In this document: positions 21,500 to 29,236 of the stretch, in pieces
Numbering within the stretch: position 1 is the first letter of the stretch
Layout of the letters: each line of letters begins with the position of its first letter
Source: Candidatus Cloacimonadota bacterium
GTDB lineage: Bacteria > Cloacimonadota > Cloacimonadia > JGIOTU-2
Reading direction: 5' to 3'
Assembly: GCA_016932035.1 (NCBI GenBank)
Contig: JAFGDR010000048.1
Location: 1-34,199, forward strand
DNA: 34,199 nucleotides
The notes under the pieces: generated by a model
Told to the model about the DNA's origin: nothing
Database searches by the model: none
What the model saw: only the letters and a program-made list of their open reading frames with translations
Translations under genes and position numbers: made by a program

Positions 21500-24400
21500 A
21501 TGACAGAAAAAAGTGACCAGAAGAAAAAAAATGCACCCGAGGTTAGATCGGATTCAGGAATTGAACTGTCAGTTTTTAGACAATTTGCTCAATCCTCAAA
21601 TCTTGGTTTTGGCATGGCTACGGTAGAAGGAATCACCGAATATGTTAATCCTGCACTCTGTCGAATGCTTGAAATTGATAAAGAGGAAATTCTCGGGGAA
21701 TCATTCATTCAATTTTATCCTCCGGATATGCAAAAGAAATTGAAAGAGGAAGTAATTGCATCAGTTATGAAAAATGGAAGCTGGCAGGGTGAATTGAGTT
21801 TTAAAACAAAAAGTGGAAAAATGATTCATACCTTTGAAAGTTATGCAGTGATATACGATGAAAAAGGCAAACCTATGTTCATCAATGACGTGATACGAGA
21901 TATAACTGAGTTAAAAAGACTTCAAGAGATCGAAATAGAATCAATAAAATCAAAACAGCAGCAAGAAGCAAAGCAAGAAAAAGAAAAATTATTACATAAC
22001 CTCAATGAACGCCTAAAGGAGATGTCGACACTGTATCAGTTTGAGAAAATCGAGAATAATACTGATCTTTCTATTGTGGAGTCACTACAAAAAATAGCTG
22101 AAATACTACCTGCAGGATTTCAATTTCCAGATATTACAGAAGCCACAGTTAAGTATGACAATACATATTATACGACGGAGCATTATAAAAAAACTTACAA
22201 CTATTTGGAAGCACCGATTATAATCAATAATGAAGAAAAGGGTTTTGTGCGAGTTGACTATACAAAGAAAGTGATACCTGACCGGAAGAATCAATTCTTG
22301 GATGAAGAGAAGAAACTGATTGAAACGATTGCCTCAAATACTGCAAATCTCATTATAAGAAGAGAGTCAGAAAGGAGATTGGCAGAAAGTGAGAAGAAAT
22401 TTCGGGAAATCGTTAATGCTCTTAATGATGCAATTTATAACTCAGACAATCAGGGTAAGCTTACCTTTGTCAATCAAGCACTTTGTGATATTTTTGGTTA
22501 TAAAGAAGATGAGATCTTAGGAAAACCTTTTGGAATGTTCATAATTCCTGAAGCACAAGAAAAATTCTTGATAGCTTACAAAGATTCTTTTAAAAATAAA
22601 AAAGCACACGATGTCCTAGAAGTTCCAGTTATTAAAAAAGATGGTTCAAAAAGAGTAGTTGAGATCAAACCGACCATTATCTTTGAAGATGGTAAACCTG
22701 TAGGTTCCCTTGGAATCATACGGGATATTACTGAGCAAAAGGAGTGGGAACAAAAGATGCGGGAGAGCGAAGAACGTTACCGCTCATTTGTGGAAAACTT
22801 CCATGGTATTGCCTTTCGAAGTAAAATGGACTGGACTCCAATCTATTTCCATGGTTCTGTTGAGGAGATAACAGGATATACCGAAGCAGAATTTATTAAC
22901 GGAAATCCACGCTGGGATCAGATCATTCACAAAGATGATCTTAAGAAACTAATTGCAGAATCCTCAAAAAAAGGAATCCAAAAAGAAGGATATATCGCAA
23001 ATCGTCAATACCGAATAATTACTAAACATGGAAAAACCAAATGGGTGTTGGATTATATTAAGACAGTATATGATGAAGTCAATGGAGAAAATATCCTACA
23101 AGGAGCTCTCTACAATATAACTGAACAAGTGAATGCGCAAGAAAAATCTGTCATTTTGGATAGTACTCCAACGCTTGTGGCTTATCATGATCTGAAACAT
23201 GAAATAATCTGGGCTAATAAGACTGCCTGTGAATCTGTTCAAATGGAATTGGATGAAGTTGTTGGGAAAAAATGTTATGAGATGTGGGCATCACGGAAGA
23301 AGGAATGTGAAAACTGCCCTGTTCGAAAATCGTGGGAAACGGGTGAGATCGTTAAAGGGGAAATGGAGACACCTGATGGTCGATACTGGATGATCTATGC
23401 CGGACCTGTGTTTGACGATAAAGGAAAGGTGATCGGTGCTGTTGAAACTACCCTTGATATAACAGAACAGAGAGTAATTGGATTAGAACTTCAGCATAAC
23501 CAGAACATGCTCCGCCAGATCATCGATACAGTTCCAAGCAGTATCTTTATAAAAGATCGAGATGGGAAGTATCTGCTCGTTAATAGTCTTATGGCTGAGC
23601 AGCATAACACGACACCGGAAGAGCTTGTCGGCAAATATGACTATGAGATCGCACAAAAATGGTTTGAAAAAGTAGATTATCAGGAGTTTCGGGCACGTGA
23701 GCAAAAATCAATAGATTCGAATACTACCCTTTTCATTCCTGAAGAATCATTTATTCATCAGGATGGGACAGTACGATGGTCTCAAACAACAAAAATTCCC
23801 TTTGAACTCTATGATAAAGAGAAATGTCTGCTTGTTATTTCCATCGATATAACTAATCGTAAGATTTCAGAAGAATCGCTGAGGATAGCAAAGGAACGAT
23901 ACGAAACAGCAGAGGAATCAGCTCATCTCGGGCACTGGGAAATGGATATCGAAACCGGAAAGAGTTTGTGGTCCGATGAATTCTTCCGTATTTGCGGCTT
24001 CGAGCCGGGAGCATTCAGTCCAACTGAAGAGATCGGTATGCAATCAATCCATCCGGATGATAGAGATAAAGCTGCAAAAGCAGTTGAAGAATCGATTGCA
24101 AACAAAAAACCCTATGCTATCGAGAAAAGGATCGTGAGACCTAATGGTGAGATTCGATGGGTGCATTCGATCGGAAAGATCATATGTGATAAAGATGAAA
24201 AACCAATAAAGCTTCAGGGATCGTTTCTAGATATCACAGAACGGAAGAAAGCAGAGAAGCTTCAGGAAACTTTCTATAAGATCTCTAACGCAGTAAGCAC
24301 CACGGATGATATTCAGGATCTTTACAGACGAATTCAGTTATATCTTGGTAATATCATTGATACAACGAACTTCTATATAGCACTTTACGACAGCAAGAAA

Positions 24401-25387
24401 CAATACATCTCATTTGGATATTATGCAGATGAAAGTTTTGAAAATCCGGATCATATGCCTTCGGGGCGTCCTTTCGGAAAGGGTTTGACTGAATATGTGC
24501 TTTCAACGGGTAAACCTTTGTTTGCAACCAGACAAACACAACATGAATTGGCAGAGAAAGGAGAAATTGAGGTCATCGGAAGATTATCTGAGATCTGGCT
24601 GGGTGTTCCACTTTGTATTGATAGTGGTCAAATTGGTGTGATAGCAGTCCAAAGCTATATCGATCCCAACCTTTATACAAAGAATGATATAGAGATACTC
24701 AATTTTGTATCCCAGGAAATAGCACTTGCCATCAACCGCAAACAGGTAGAAGAAAAGATAAAACGAGAATTAAAGGAAAAGGAGCTTCTGCTCAGAGAAA
24801 TTCATCATAGAACAAAAAATAATCTTCAAACGATCTGCGGTTTATTGCAGCTCCAGGAATATTCGATCAACTCCAAAGAGGATGCGGTCAAGGGTTTCGA
24901 AGCAAGCCAGGACAGGATCAGGGCTATGTCGAGTGCCTACGAAATATTGCTCAGTTCAGAATACATGTCTGAAGTCACACTGGGAGAATATATTACCTTA
25001 CTTGTTGAACAGATAAAGAAAAACTATGATATTCATAACAAGGTCAAGCTTGCATTTTCACTCGATGAAGTATCTTTTGAAACTGAGAAGTTAAGTAAAC
25101 TCGGATTAATATTGAATGAAATTATTACGAATTCAATTAAATATGCTTTTGAGGATATGGAAAAAGGAACTGTAAAACTAAGATTATCGCAGGATGAAAA
25201 AAATGTGATCTTAAAGATATCAGATAACGGTGGGGGTATCCCCAAAGAAATAGATCTAAAAAATCCTAAAACCCTCGGTTTATCATTAATTGATATGTTG
25301 GTGTATGAATTTGGTGGTACCTATTTACTGAATATAAATAAGGGCACCAGCTATACGTTGAATATTCCCAAGCATGGACGTTCATAG
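21500..25387 (+). CDS. Soluble multi-PAS/GAF sensor histidine kinase (HisKA_2 type)
   Basis: The 1295-residue kinase has no membrane helix or signal peptide. Domains in order: PAS1 (about 20-135), coiled coil and a GAF-like region (about 165-290), PAS2 (292-415), PAS3 (421-540), PAS4 (550-660), PAS5 (669-790), PAS6 (798-915), GAF (919-1085), HisKA_2 (about 1096-1170) and HATPase_c (about 1193-1292). The H-box LREIHHRTKNNLQ marks H1103 as phosphoacceptor; the N and G boxes are seen as LNEIITNSIKYA and ISDNGGGIP. PAS4 carries a cysteine cluster (KKCYEMW then CENCPV). The kinase should sense cytoplasmic signals. No output domain is attached; the next gene, with a receiver domain, lies five bases after and is the likely partner. 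Confidence 0.92.
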   Translation: MTEKSDQKKKNAPEVRSDSGIELSVFRQFAQSSNLGFGMATVEGITEYVNPALCRMLEIDKEEILGESFIQFYPPDMQKKLKEEVIASVMKNGSWQGELSFKTKSGKMIHTFESYAVIYDEKGKPMFINDVIRDITELKRLQEIEIESIKSKQQQEAKQEKEKLLHNLNERLKEMSTLYQFEKIENNTDLSIVESLQKIAEILPAGFQFPDITEATVKYDNTYYTTEHYKKTYNYLEAPIIINNEEKGFVRVDYTKKVIPDRKNQFLDEEKKLIETIASNTANLIIRRESERRLAESEKKFREIVNALNDAIYNSDNQGKLTFVNQALCDIFGYKEDEILGKPFGMFIIPEAQEKFLIAYKDSFKNKKAHDVLEVPVIKKDGSKRVVEIKPTIIFEDGKPVGSLGIIRDITEQKEWEQKMRESEERYRSFVENFHGIAFRSKMDWTPIYFHGSVEEITGYTEAEFINGNPRWDQIIHKDDLKKLIAESSKKGIQKEGYIANRQYRIITKHGKTKWVLDYIKTVYDEVNGENILQGALYNITEQVNAQEKSVILDSTPTLVAYHDLKHEIIWANKTACESVQMELDEVVGKKCYEMWASRKKECENCPVRKSWETGEIVKGEMETPDGRYWMIYAGPVFDDKGKVIGAVETTLDITEQRVIGLELQHNQNMLRQIIDTVPSSIFIKDRDGKYLLVNSLMAEQHNTTPEELVGKYDYEIAQKWFEKVDYQEFRAREQKSIDSNTTLFIPEESFIHQDGTVRWSQTTKIPFELYDKEKCLLVISIDITNRKISEESLRIAKERYETAEESAHLGHWEMDIETGKSLWSDEFFRICGFEPGAFSPTEEIGMQSIHPDDRDKAAKAVEESIANKKPYAIEKRIVRPNGEIRWVHSIGKIICDKDEKPIKLQGSFLDITERKKAEKLQETFYKISNAVSTTDDIQDLYRRIQLYLGNIIDTTNFYIALYDSKKQYISFGYYADESFENPDHMPSGRPFGKGLTEYVLSTGKPLFATRQTQHELAEKGEIEVIGRLSEIWLGVPLCIDSGQIGVIAVQSYIDPNLYTKNDIEILNFVSQEIALAINRKQVEEKIKRELKEKELLLREIHHRTKNNLQTICGLLQLQEYSINSKEDAVKGFEASQDRIRAMSSAYEILLSSEYMSEVTLGEYITLLVEQIKKNYDIHNKVKLAFSLDEVSFETEKLSKLGLILNEIITNSIKYAFEDMEKGTVKLRLSQDEKNVILKISDNGGGIPKEIDLKNPKTLGLSLIDMLVYEFGGTYLLNINKGTSYTLNIPKHGRS

Positions 25388-25398
25388 GGGAGATGCAT

Positions 25399-27189
25399 AT
25401 GATCTTTAGGCTGAATATTTTACTTGTAGAAGACAATCCAGGTGATGCTGAGCTTATCAAAGAATATATCTTTGATACGAGTCTGCGTAATTCAGTTTTT
25501 ACTGAAGCACACACCCTTCAGGAAGCTATTATGTTCTGTGTTGAACAGGACTTTGATGTGATCCTTCTTGATCTGGGTTTGCCCGACAGCAATGGATTGA
25601 GCACAATCACAAAACTCTTGCAATGTGAGAAAAAAGTACCCATTATCGTTCTGACAGGGCTGGAAGATGAGAAGATAGCGCTCGATGCAATCAGGTTAGG
25701 AGCGCAGGATTATATAACGAAAAGTAATATTAATCCAGACGTGCTTGTGAGGATCCTTCGATATTCAATAGAACGGAAAAGGACACAAGAAGCACTTTTC
25801 GAAAGTGAAAAAAAATATAGAGACCTTGTGAATCATATAACTGATGGTATCTATAATACTGATCTGCAAGGAAAATTCACCTTTGTTAATGATGCATTAT
25901 GTAAGATTTTTGGTTATTATGAAAGTGAACTCTTAGGAAAACCGTTCAGTATGTTGGTCGAACCGGAAAAACGCGAAGAATTTGTTTCCCGTTACAACGA
26001 ATCATTTAAAACAGGTAGATCTAGTGAGATTATCGAGGTGCCGGCAATAACGGAAGATGGATCAAGCATTACTGTTGAGATAAAACCGGTCGTACAATAT
26101 GAGAAGGGTGAACCTGCTGGATCGAGAGGTGTTGTTCGGGATGTAACAGAAAGGAAAAACTGGGAGCAACAACTCGAGGAGAGTGAAGTACGGTATCGTT
26201 CTTTTGTTGAGAATTTTCACGGGATTGCATTCAGGAGTTTTTTAAATGGTATTCCCATCTATTTTCATGGAGCAGTCAAAGAAATTACCGGTTACACAGA
26301 AGCTGAATTCATCAATGGATATCCCCGCTGGGAAGAGATTATATATCAAGATGATCAAGAGCGTCTTGCACGATCACATGATCAGAAAATACTGTCTGAC
26401 GGCTTCGACATTGAAAGAGAATACAGGATTGTCAGAAAGGATGGCAAGATAGCGTGGGTGCATGATTACATTCAGACTATCTTTGATTATACGAGAAATA
26501 AAAATATCCTTCAGGGTGCGATCTATGATGTTACCGAACGAAAAAAAGCTGAGGAAGAACTCAGCCTTAGTCGTGAACAGCTCAAAATGGCGAATTCAAT
26601 TTTACGCCATGATGTAACGAATGATCTCTCAGTTATCCAGAGTGCAGTAGAAATTTTTCAGGATGAGAAAGACGATCAAATGCTTGATGAAATCGAGAAA
26701 CGTGTTAACATGAGCATGGATACGATAAGGAAGCAGAGATCAAGAGAAAAAGCGATAGAGACTCATGCACAGCTTGATGAGTACGAGATCGAGCATGTTT
26801 TACATGATGTTGCTCAGGATTATAAAAATATCAAAATAAGCATTTCCGGTCATGGAAGAGCGTATGCAGACCAGTCTATCTATTCTGTATTTAAAAATAT
26901 CATCAGCAATGCCATACAACATGGCAAGACTTCATCAATAGATATTGGTGTTTCCTATAAAGGTAATTTCTGTGAGATAAGAATAGCTGACAATGGTATT
27001 GGAATACCGGATGATTTAAAGGAAAAAGTGTTTTATGAAGGTTATTCTTTTGGAAAAGACGGGCATACAGGCATTGGATTACATATAGTAAAACAGACAA
27101 TTAAAGATTATGCAGGTGAAGTCTTCGTAGAGGATAATAAACCGAAAGGTACTGTGTTTATTGTCAGATTGAGAAAGGGAATTGATTAA
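25399..27189 (+). CDS. Receiver-PAS-PAS hybrid histidine kinase
   Basis: The 596-residue product begins with a receiver domain (about 1-125; LLVEDNPGDAEL, phospho-acceptor D58 in LLDLGLPDSNG, the later VLTGLED and YITKSN). PAS1 (about 133-255) and PAS2 (259-385) follow, then a histidine box of the LRHDVTNDL kind (H404) and a HATPase_c (about 475-595; NIISNAIQHG, IADNGIGIP, GIGLHIV). The ATG at 25393 is also open, but the ATG at 25399 has GGGGAG at proper spacing and is preferred. Its PAS2 is nearly the same as PAS3 of the preceding kinase. A receiver before the sensor suggests that the first kinase phosphorylates it. No DNA-binding output is present. Confidence 0.92.
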   Translation: MIFRLNILLVEDNPGDAELIKEYIFDTSLRNSVFTEAHTLQEAIMFCVEQDFDVILLDLGLPDSNGLSTITKLLQCEKKVPIIVLTGLEDEKIALDAIRLGAQDYITKSNINPDVLVRILRYSIERKRTQEALFESEKKYRDLVNHITDGIYNTDLQGKFTFVNDALCKIFGYYESELLGKPFSMLVEPEKREEFVSRYNESFKTGRSSEIIEVPAITEDGSSITVEIKPVVQYEKGEPAGSRGVVRDVTERKNWEQQLEESEVRYRSFVENFHGIAFRSFLNGIPIYFHGAVKEITGYTEAEFINGYPRWEEIIYQDDQERLARSHDQKILSDGFDIEREYRIVRKDGKIAWVHDYIQTIFDYTRNKNILQGAIYDVTERKKAEEELSLSREQLKMANSILRHDVTNDLSVIQSAVEIFQDEKDDQMLDEIEKRVNMSMDTIRKQRSREKAIETHAQLDEYEIEHVLHDVAQDYKNIKISISGHGRAYADQSIYSVFKNIISNAIQHGKTSSIDIGVSYKGNFCEIRIADNGIGIPDDLKEKVFYEGYSFGKDGHTGIGLHIVKQTIKDYAGEVFVEDNKPKGTVFIVRLRKGID

Positions 27190-27232
27190 GAAAAGGATGA
27201 AGAGGAGAGGATTTAAAGATATGAAGTGGATG

Positions 27233-27256
27233 TAGGGATTAGGATATAGGATTTAG
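27233..27256 (+). repeat. TTAGGG-like short repeat, left copy
   Basis: The stretch has TAGGGATTAG at 27233-27242 and TAGGATTTAG at 27247-27256. Both ten-base words recur in reverse orientation at 27666-27688, on the other side of the four-helix-bundle gene. Confidence 0.7.
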
Positions 27257-27264
27257 TATTATTT

Positions 27265-27618
27265 TTATTTTTTTTTGAGTGAGGATATCAAGCCATTGAG
27301 CATTTTCCCAATTTCTTCTGTTTGAAGTATTAGATCATTATACAAACTGGATGTTATATAACAAAGACCTTTAGATAGTAGAAGGAAATAGTTAAGTTCG
27401 TTTAAACTCCCTCTTGAATTATATAAGAAACGAATATAGTCTCTTGTTGTGTTCCTTGAATTCCCTTCAACAATATTTGCAGGAATTGAATAAGCTGCCC
27501 GTATCATCTGATCAATAATACGATACTTTTCGTCTTTAGGAAATTTATTTGTTATTTGATAGAGTGTTAAAACAAGTTGGTGTGATTTCTTGAAAACATC
27601 TAAATCACTATAATTCAT
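27265..27618 (-). CDS. Four-helix-bundle protein (S23 / intervening-sequence type)
   Basis: The 117-residue product matches the four-helix-bundle family PF05635 (TIGR02436). Marks are DLDVFKKSHQLV at the start, RAAYSIPANIVEG in the second helix and SRGSLNELNYFLLL in the third. Members were first found inside 23S rRNA intervening sequences of spirochaetes; many stand alone in genomes of uncultured bacteria, and function is unknown. A strong GGAGG precedes the ATG at 27618. Its C-terminal LKKK is coded by a T-rich run. It is bracketed by inverted TTAGGG-like repeats and lies between a plus-strand kinase and a minus-strand sugar dehydrogenase, which suggests a small mobile cassette. Confidence 0.9.
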   Translation of the reverse strand: MNYSDLDVFKKSHQLVLTLYQITNKFPKDEKYRIIDQMIRAAYSIPANIVEGNSRNTTRDYIRFLYNSRGSLNELNYFLLLSKGLCYITSSLYNDLILQTEEIGKMLNGLISSLKKK

Positions 27619-27665
27619 GATTCCTCCTTATAAATTAATTATATGTTACAATATTCTCCCAAATT

Positions 27666-27703
27666 CTAATCCCTAACCCTAAATCCTATTCCCTAACTCC
27701 TAG
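27666..27703 (-). repeat. TTAGGG-like short repeat, right copy, overlapping a gene end
   Basis: Read on the minus strand it contains several TAGGGA/TTAGGG-like units, among them TAGGATTTAG and TAGGGATTAG, the same words as the left copy at 27233-27256. Bases 27686-27703 also encode the last five residues (LGVRE) and the stop codon of the dehydrogenase gene. Confidence 0.7.
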
Positions 27704-29236
27704 ATCCTTAATATGTCCTTTCCCAACTCCTTTTACCCTGCATCCCAACTTTATGTATTTCTTTATTGTATCATCATTTAGAAAGTTTGAACAATCAATG
27801 ATAAGCGGTTTACCTTCTGACATCTTGATCACATCTTTCGGGTCAAGCTTGATATAGTCTGAATGACCAACCGCAAAGATAATGACATCAGCCTGCGTAA
27901 GTGCATCTTCAAGATTTTTCTCTATTGGAACATTCTCCATTTCTGGCCAATATTCCACATATGGATCATGAGTTTTAACAACTGCCCAGTACTCATTCAG
28001 AAATTTGATCAATGTCTCAGAGGGTGAGTGACGTGTATCACCAAGATCTTCTAGATATGAGACACCAAGCACAGCAATTTTCACATCTTTTAATTCAGGA
28101 TACTCTTCCTTGATCAGATCGATCGTATGGAGCGGCATAGTATCATTTATGTCAACCGAATGAACTGCCATCTTAAGATCTTCATCGATATTGAAGATCG
28201 CATCCATTGCCCAGTTAGCGAGCACAGGATCTTTGGTGAGACAGTAGCCACCAACCCCTAAACTTGGACGCAGAAGGTTATCATGAGTTCCTTTACGCTT
28301 TCGAATGGCTGCGCGAACTTTATGAAGATCGACACCGATCTTTTCAGCGCATTTAGCCCATTCAAGCGTGAGTGCTATATTGGTTGCTCGGTAAGAGTTC
28401 TCCATGACTTTTGAGAGTTCAGAAGCATTGGTATTATCGAGTTCTGTGAGAGGATAGTTTTCTGTATCTAAAATATTATTAAGAAATTCTCGTGCAATGT
28501 CTTTGCTTTTCTCATTCACTCCGGAAAATACTCGCCAGAAATCACGTATTGAACTCACATATTTTGCTCCGGGCATAACGCGTTCATATGAATGTGCGAT
28601 AAGCGGAGGATGTTTTTTGATGTTTATGCCACGTTTCTTAAATTCTTCTTCAATAAGTGGTTTTACCACTTTTTGACAGGTTCCGGGAGGAACGGTCGTT
28701 TCAACCAGAATAAGACAATCGGGTTTAATATGTTTTCCCAGTGTTTTCATTCCATCTCTAAAAGCGGACATATCACAATATCCCTGTGCTGCATCACCAA
28801 AAGCTGGTTTTGTTGCATCAAGCTGAATATCAACAACAACGATATCGGCAACTTCATAGGCGTAGTTCAACCAAGTTGCACGAAGGGTTTTCTTTTCTAC
28901 AACTGTTCGATGGAAGATCTCGGGTACTTCAGCATCAGAGGAACTCACGGGGGGAACTCCTGTGTTTATTATTGGCACTTTCCAGAAAGAACGTGTGGAA
29001 GCTCGTTGTTGACCATGTACAAAATAGAGCGGTTTTCCATTTTCATCAACTGCATCAGCGACCACAGCAGCCATAACGCAACCGACAAAACCCATGCCCT
29101 GGACTGCTACTATCTTCCGTCCGAGTTTGCTTTGTTCCTCGGTTATTCTCTTGAGTTCTTCTAATTCTTTTTCTGATTGTAAGTCTGTGGGCAATTGATA
29201 TTCAGTTCCATTAGGTGCGAGGGAAATGTTTTTCAT
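27686..29236 (-). CDS. Nucleotide-sugar dehydrogenase (UDP-glucose/GDP-mannose dehydrogenase family)
   Basis: The 516-residue enzyme has a Rossmann region (KIVAVQGMGFVGCVMAAVVAD at about 40-60), VETTVPPGTC in the middle, the helix ELSKVMENSYRATNIAL and the catalytic cysteine C332 in GVGGYCLTKDP. A C-terminal domain with GVSYLEDLGDTRHSPS follows. Such enzymes oxidise the C6 of a UDP- or GDP-sugar to a uronic acid in two NAD steps. It is longer than the usual 420-440 residues: about 40 extra at the N-terminus and an insertion around residues 75-110. The sugar cannot be fixed. The start has AAGGAG and lies nine bases after the Wzi-like gene. The last residues derive from a repeat. Confidence 0.87.
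   Translation of the reverse strand: MKNISLAPNGTEYQLPTDLQSEKELEELKRITEEQSKLGRKIVAVQGMGFVGCVMAAVVADAVDENGKPLYFVHGQQRASTRSFWKVPIINTGVPPVSSSDAEVPEIFHRTVVEKKTLRATWLNYAYEVADIVVVDIQLDATKPAFGDAAQGYCDMSAFRDGMKTLGKHIKPDCLILVETTVPPGTCQKVVKPLIEEEFKKRGINIKKHPPLIAHSYERVMPGAKYVSSIRDFWRVFSGVNEKSKDIAREFLNNILDTENYPLTELDNTNASELSKVMENSYRATNIALTLEWAKCAEKIGVDLHKVRAAIRKRKGTHDNLLRPSLGVGGYCLTKDPVLANWAMDAIFNIDEDLKMAVHSVDINDTMPLHTIDLIKEEYPELKDVKIAVLGVSYLEDLGDTRHSPSETLIKFLNEYWAVVKTHDPYVEYWPEMENVPIEKNLEDALTQADVIIFAVGHSDYIKLDPKDVIKMSEGKPLIIDCSNFLNDDTIKKYIKLGCRVKGVGKGHIKDLGVRE

Follow-up and report, generated by a model that had tools for sequence, protein, structure and literature searches.

The S23/IVP proteins, known since the early 1990s, have no assigned function that we are aware of. 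In Coxiella burnetii an S23 open-reading frame (ORF) sits in an rRNA intervening sequence (IVS) which is bounded by 28-bp terminal inverted repeats and has been called selfish (PMC4990558), and IVP ORFs are also present in rRNA insertions of CPR bacteria. One solved S23 relative has been reported to form a homopentameric ring (PMC4990558), and the S23 four-helix bundle is homologous to the DGR protein Avd (PMC10053308). Heptamer arrays have been described from other starting points: the GGGAATC arrays of Xanthomonas and GGGGA(C/T)T arrays of Nostoc, which include ~70 convergent inverted pairs in X. campestris, favour the sense strand near stop codons and the antisense strand before ORFs, and were not linked by their authors to S23 or to mobile elements (PMC4692102). 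TAACTGA repeats of Beggiatoaceae, cyanobacteria and Bacteroidetes lie between genes, sometimes over the upstream stop, and are patchily distributed across phyla, for their transfer "no mechanism is evident" (PMC4679880). Our literature search found nothing linking S23/IVP genes with heptamer arrays; it left subscription journals mostly uncovered, and a prior description is not excluded.

The window (the whole stretch of DNA analysed, 34,199 nucleotides of a Candidatus Cloacimonadota contig) contains an S23 gene situated between a dehydrogenase and a putative kinase gene, not inside an rRNA gene (Table 1). The original prediction, made from the letters alone, held that two ten-base words frame this gene and no other, the second pair being inverted, and both points were confirmed: TAGGGATTAG is found at 27233-27242 and TAGGATTTAG at 27247-27256, their reverse complements at 27666-27675 and 27679-27688, and in the ORF list of the window the S23 ORF is the only one between them. 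When the two flanks were aligned to each other the best alignment spanned 38 columns (ATATTAAGGATCTAGGAGTTAGGGAATAGGATTTAG vs. ATATGAAGTGGATGTAGGGATTAGGATATAGGATTTAG, score 17), a score reached by 0 of 2000 shuffles and by ~1% of swapped S23 flanks. The S23 protein matches PF05635 (23S_rRNA_IVP; E 2.1e-36, 124.8 bits against a curated cut-off of 33.8) and TIGR02436 ("four helix bundle protein"; 2e-34, 118.1 bits, cut-off 24), and its solved relatives are 2GSC (X. campestris XCC0516; E 3.5e-17) and 2RLD. Profile searches identified no recognisable catalytic domain in S23; a host enzyme is not excluded. S23 had no PADLOC match and no match among 50,697 phage records, on which grounds a known defence protein and phage carriage were rejected, as was a known RNA family, no Rfam match being found in window positions 26900-28000. 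Two adjoining multi-PAS histidine-kinase-type ORFs (1295 and 598 aa) occupy window positions 21500-27189, beside a nucleotide-sugar gene cluster.

Table 1. Coordinates of the S23 cassette and the adjoining genes in the window.
Feature	Position	Strand	Basis
S23 / 23S_rRNA_IVP four-helix-bundle gene, 117 aa	27265..27618	(-)	Profile matches and solved relative
Shine-Dalgarno AAGGAGG between the S23 start codon and the 5' array	27623..27629	(-)	Read from sequence
5' array, gene sense GATCTAGGAGTTAGGGAATAGGATTTAGGGTTAGGGATTAGAATTTGGG, extending into the dehydrogenase end	27658..27706	(-)	Flank alignment, orthologue divergence
3' array, reverse complement of the 5' array; plus strand AGTGGATGTAGGGATTAGGATATAGGATTTAG	27225..27256	(-)	Flank alignment
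Dehydrogenase codons 512-516 and stop (L-GVRE-stop), array-written	27686..27703	(-)	ORF list, orthologue divergence
Upstream co-directional nucleotide-sugar (UDPG/MGDP) dehydrogenase, its stop codon being the insertion site	27686..29236	(-)	PF03721/PF00984/PF03720
Convergent neighbour on the other side of the cassette, putative PAS/response-regulator-type histidine kinase ORF	25393..27189	(+)	Read from sequence

The cassette resembles the 23S rRNA IVS of C. burnetii in having a single ORF of ~120 aa from the same protein family, a total length of ~430-480 bp and terminal inverted repeats whose complementarity permits a long stem (PMC4990558). Unlike the IVS it lies between protein genes at stop codons and not in rRNA, and unlike the IVS as described its ends are tandem 7-8 bp arrays, the unit of which varies with the protein, and it has S23-less derivatives.

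Five PF05635 matches, four of them over the cut-off, are present in the window genome, and relatives of the same class carry from 0 to 30 S23 copies. Genomes were scanned with a single protein as query, no profile block being conserved enough. The set analysed comprised 181 S23 genes from the window's own class, from cyanobacterial plasmids and from 80 loci in other phyla (Bacteroidota, Nitrospirae, Omnitrophota, KSB1, Atribacterota, Desulfobacterota, CPR, Planctomycetes, an archaeon and others). Each 5' flank was compared with the reverse complement of the 3' flank, with the threshold placed at the 95th percentile of swapped-flank pairs. Mirrored arrays exceeded it at 140 of the 181 S23 genes (4.3% expected) and at 7 of 181 (4%) control ORFs near S23 genes; dereplicated by protein, 77 of 104 S23 genes had them (74%; 5% by swapped-flank chance). 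They were visible at 28/28 S23 matches in three Flavobacterium genomes, one scoring just under threshold, and in 8/8 further S23 copies examined on cyanobacterial plasmids. About a quarter of S23 genes have no detectable mirrored array, for which we offer decay, early families or contig ends as an explanation. The flanks are AT-rich, which counts in favour of an artefact of chance or base composition, yet with 0 of 2000 shuffles matching the window, 74% against 5% expected in the 104 dereplicated genes and no arrays in block shuffles of 400 kb, the likelihood of such an artefact is practically nil, and the shuffle and swapped-flank controls rule it out.

The arrays have periods of 7 (14, 21, 28) and 8 (16, 24) bases, and their unit is a degenerate 7-8 bp word which is mirrored within a locus and varies between loci, for example GAGAGGTC, AAAGTCG, GTTTCAG, AGGCACAA, AGGGAGT and AGTTGACG. 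The TTAGG type of the window is one version only, and because different units stand at other S23 loci we reject a TTAGGG or telomere-like meaning. The expectation that the repeats would flank S23 genes elsewhere was thus met by the mirrored arrays and not by the TTAGGG-like word itself; the accompanying proposal of a genome-wide search for that word returned no further copy with ≤3 mismatches in its own 2.44 Mb genome, other S23 copies carrying other units. As far as sequence comparison can establish it, the signature is a mirrored 7-8 bp array, with a unit that changes per cassette and follows the S23 protein. These are heptamer arrays like the GGGAATC and GGGGA(C/T)T arrays (PMC4692102) and the cyanobacterial STRR, and differ from the former as described in having an S23 gene between the arms, including on Nostoc, Anabaena and Calothrix plasmids. 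The TAACTGA repeats are similarly intergenic heptamer arrays, sometimes over upstream stops and patchy across phyla, but unlike S23 cassettes are described as direct, with one inverted pair and no S23 gene (PMC4679880).

Unit similarity rose with S23 similarity across the set (Mantel r 0.21, 0 of 2000 permutations). Among S23 pairs of similarity >0.7 with non-homologous neighbours, 11 of 13 had a common unit (8 of 10 at similarity 0.7-0.8, 3 of 3 above 0.8). For example, a cassette from the window's own genus (L028, genome G001) and one from a plasmid of the cyanobacterium Trichormus variabilis (L104) align over 405 bp at 72% identity, the similarity covering the gene and its arrays and stopping at their ends, and the L015/L020 pair behaves in the same way. 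By this comparison, shared cassettes stand beside unrelated genes and in different phyla. One contig, binned as Limnohabitans (L161 and L174), carries a cassette and a neighbour ORF 87% identical to Flavobacterium fluvii, and is probably mis-binned or a recent transfer.

The window dehydrogenase ends HIKDL-GVRE-stop, and the array covers the stop (27686-27688), the GVRE codons (27689-27700) and part or all of L512, which bears out the claim that the end of this gene is repeat sequence. Orthologues in the family (80-89% identity) can be aligned with it as far as residue 512-514, beyond which they part, each finishing in its own array or its own sequence, and the suggested comparison of orthologues accordingly found C-termini departing from that of the window from codon 512/513 on. 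An S23 cassette is present at the dehydrogenase end in seven genomes (G000, the window genome, G001, G002, G005, G006, G007 and G010), with several different units and S23 types among them. One dehydrogenase copy in G005 has no cassette (L201) while its paralogue has one (L189), the two having a common downstream terminator, GGACTGAAGAAATTC.GTCCTTTTTT, and in G009 (L196) an array is found at the dehydrogenase end with no S23 gene within the stretch read. In two of the dehydrogenase loci, L192 (G001) and L193 (G010), a GIY-YIG nuclease ORF (PF01541, E 7.8e-21) lies inside the S23 gene at its conserved NI(A)EG codons, with ends like CCCCGTGTAAT / ATTACACAGGG; remnants resembling these insert ends, CACGGGGCAGGCACGG, are present in L202 and L204. 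The nuclease ORF looks like a second element targeting S23 genes.

Across S23 genes the median distance between the upstream gene's stop codon and the beginning of the 5' array is +1 bp, and 87% of the arrays begin between -40 and +60. Together with the dehydrogenase orthologues, the mirrored arrays at S23 genes elsewhere support the original reading of a small cassette inserting near gene ends. The upstream neighbour is co-directional with S23 in 107 of 110 cases (control genes, 96 of 112), a strong tendency and not a rule, since a few copies are antisense to their neighbours (e.g. L454, L099). Cassette anatomy, mirrored ends, the coupling of unit to protein and the stop-codon position are all shown by comparing loci. 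L454, on a Nostoc edaphicum plasmid, has near-perfect TAGGGAG arrays and lies antisense between both ribonucleotide reductase subunit genes. S23 cassettes also occur between cas6 and cas4 of a CRISPR locus on plasmids of Pseudanabaena (L101) and Anabaena sp. 90 (L458), with two different array units.

Filled and empty versions of the same site were found at one Flavobacterium gene pair. The junction is bare in three genomes (L294-L296), with the stop TAA, 1-2 bases and ATG (for example TAA G ATG); it is filled by cassette A (unit AAAGTCG) in 18 genomes, by cassette B (unit GTTTCAG, with a clearly different S23) in nine and by S23-less mirrored hairpin minis of several units in ~19. No clear target-site duplication was seen between the empty TAA-G-ATG and filled sites, the array ends being degenerate. 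A flank tree (600 bp, 50 genomes) requires at least 26 state changes at this junction (shuffled mean 28.0), which are not 26 insertions because homologous recombination through the conserved flanks can exchange alleles. A second site (L207) has a similar mixture of states. Compared across genomes, the sites present filled, empty and differently filled alleles.

These alleles bear on whether the cassette is instead a regulatory or RNA-processing device, in which an RNA stem of the arrays walls off the S23 message in the host transcript, much as RNase III trims the rRNA IVS, and S23 binds the stem to control itself or its neighbours, spreading by homologous recombination and vertical descent only. 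The window cassette RNA does fold into an end-to-end stem around the S23 ORF (-110.5 kcal/mol, z -4.35), placement within operons is strongly co-directional, and the Coxiella IVS is cut by RNase III in the stem of its inverted ends (PMC4990558). However, regulation alone leaves unexplained the true empty sites, the unrelated S23 cassettes at one junction and the same-unit cassettes in unrelated neighbourhoods and phyla, and some copies are antisense to their neighbours (L454, L099); we regard it as unlikely.

Arrays without S23 are also found. In 400 kb of Flavobacterium G061 there are 30 arrays, 6 of them as mirrored pairs without S23, and none in block shuffles. The density of S23-less arrays per 100 kb is 0.54 in four S23-free relatives of the class, 1.1 in the window genome (from sampled stretches), 7.7 in S23-rich relatives (from unselected contigs) and 7.3 in G061, ~14 times higher in S23-rich than in S23-free relatives, which belong to different families of the class; on this comparison array density rises with S23 number. 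In 150 Flavobacterium genomes, AATTGTK arrays occurred in 21 of 40 genomes with an S23 bearing the AATTGTK unit and in 13 of 110 others (Fisher p 7e-7; p 0.0005 and 0.02 within size classes), with genome-size and phylogenetic effects controlled only in part. Repeats occurring broadly without such genes had been named as a refutation of the cassette. Arrays without S23 do exist, in other genomes; they do not overturn the cassette reading and rather extend it, because they take the form of mirrored minis, occupy sites of the same kind and are found mainly where S23 genes are numerous.

That S23-less arrays are common in some genomes could also mean that the arrays are simple-sequence repeats independent of S23, which slippage and fold-back template switching maintain at gene junctions and in which S23 genes merely land or hitchhike. 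Quasi-palindrome correction, an established process, could keep the two arms alike. Against this, array units track the S23 protein, S23-free relatives have few arrays and the window array word is unique in its genome, and we give the idea little weight.

The kinship with Avd raises one more route, by which S23 would hand the cassette RNA to a trans-acting reverse transcriptase, the tandem ends being made by target-primed copying. The window protein matches bAvd (PF22296, 2.4e-12) and the DivGenRetAVD model (7.2e-15, under cut-off), Avd is a homologous pentameric four-helix bundle (PMC10053308), and tandem 3' ends resemble reverse transcriptase slippage. Unlike the DGR setting of Avd, the window genome lacks a reverse transcriptase: profile searches gave no RVT_1 match in it (95% complete), in G009 (30 S23 copies) or in G012 (22 copies, 96% complete). 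A reverse transcriptase in trans was rejected on the absence of RVT_1 from these S23-rich genomes, and we find a retro-element very hard to credit.

We consider it likely that the S23 gene and the mirrored heptamer/octamer arrays on either side of it together form one transposase-less minimal mobile element, in which the S23 protein recognises its own arrays. Movement is inferred from the comparisons, no transposition having been observed, and the binding of S23 to arrays, its role as mobility factor and the host-enzyme route are likewise inferred. The arrays would be the ends of the element. The S23 protein, a four-helix bundle closely related to pentameric rings, would most likely bind the unit of its own arrays, either as folded DNA or as an RNA stem made by both arrays. 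Host replication, repair or recombination enzymes may then write copies of the unit between a stop codon and the gene that follows; the inserted array itself would supply the upstream gene's stop, and S23-less array pairs would be non-autonomous derivatives or remnants, served in trans. Such an element resembles MITEs and REPIN-RAYT as a small inverted-ended unit at gene ends in autonomous and protein-less versions, and MITEs or transposons in its terminal inverted repeats and presence or absence at orthologous sites; it differs from MITEs and REPIN-RAYT in having no recognisable transposase, only S23 inside, tandem-array ends of changing unit and no clear target duplication seen.

We see in the cassette a strong candidate for a class of minimal mobile element that is related to the rRNA IVS elements and has not itself been described. 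The wider proposal is evenly poised, namely that S23 cassettes are a new enzyme-less class in which a pentameric protein reads its own changing heptamer array and directs insertion into stop-to-start gaps, with the rRNA IVS and the orphan heptamer arrays of cyanobacteria, xanthomonads and Beggiatoaceae as members or derivatives; there are no binding data, and none on rRNA IVS ends as arrays. The cassette reading joins the unexplained mobility of the IVS, the orphan heptamer arrays (STRR, GGGAATC, TAACTGA) and many "four helix bundle protein" genes into one unit, and may explain two old puzzles, the rRNA "intervening sequences" and the scattered seven-letter repeat arrays. On this reading every S23 protein should bind the unit of its own arrays, a prediction for which many natural pairs exist. 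Should S23 prove to be the factor behind mobility, few known ones would be as small (~120 aa), and its array specificity could be read from sequence.
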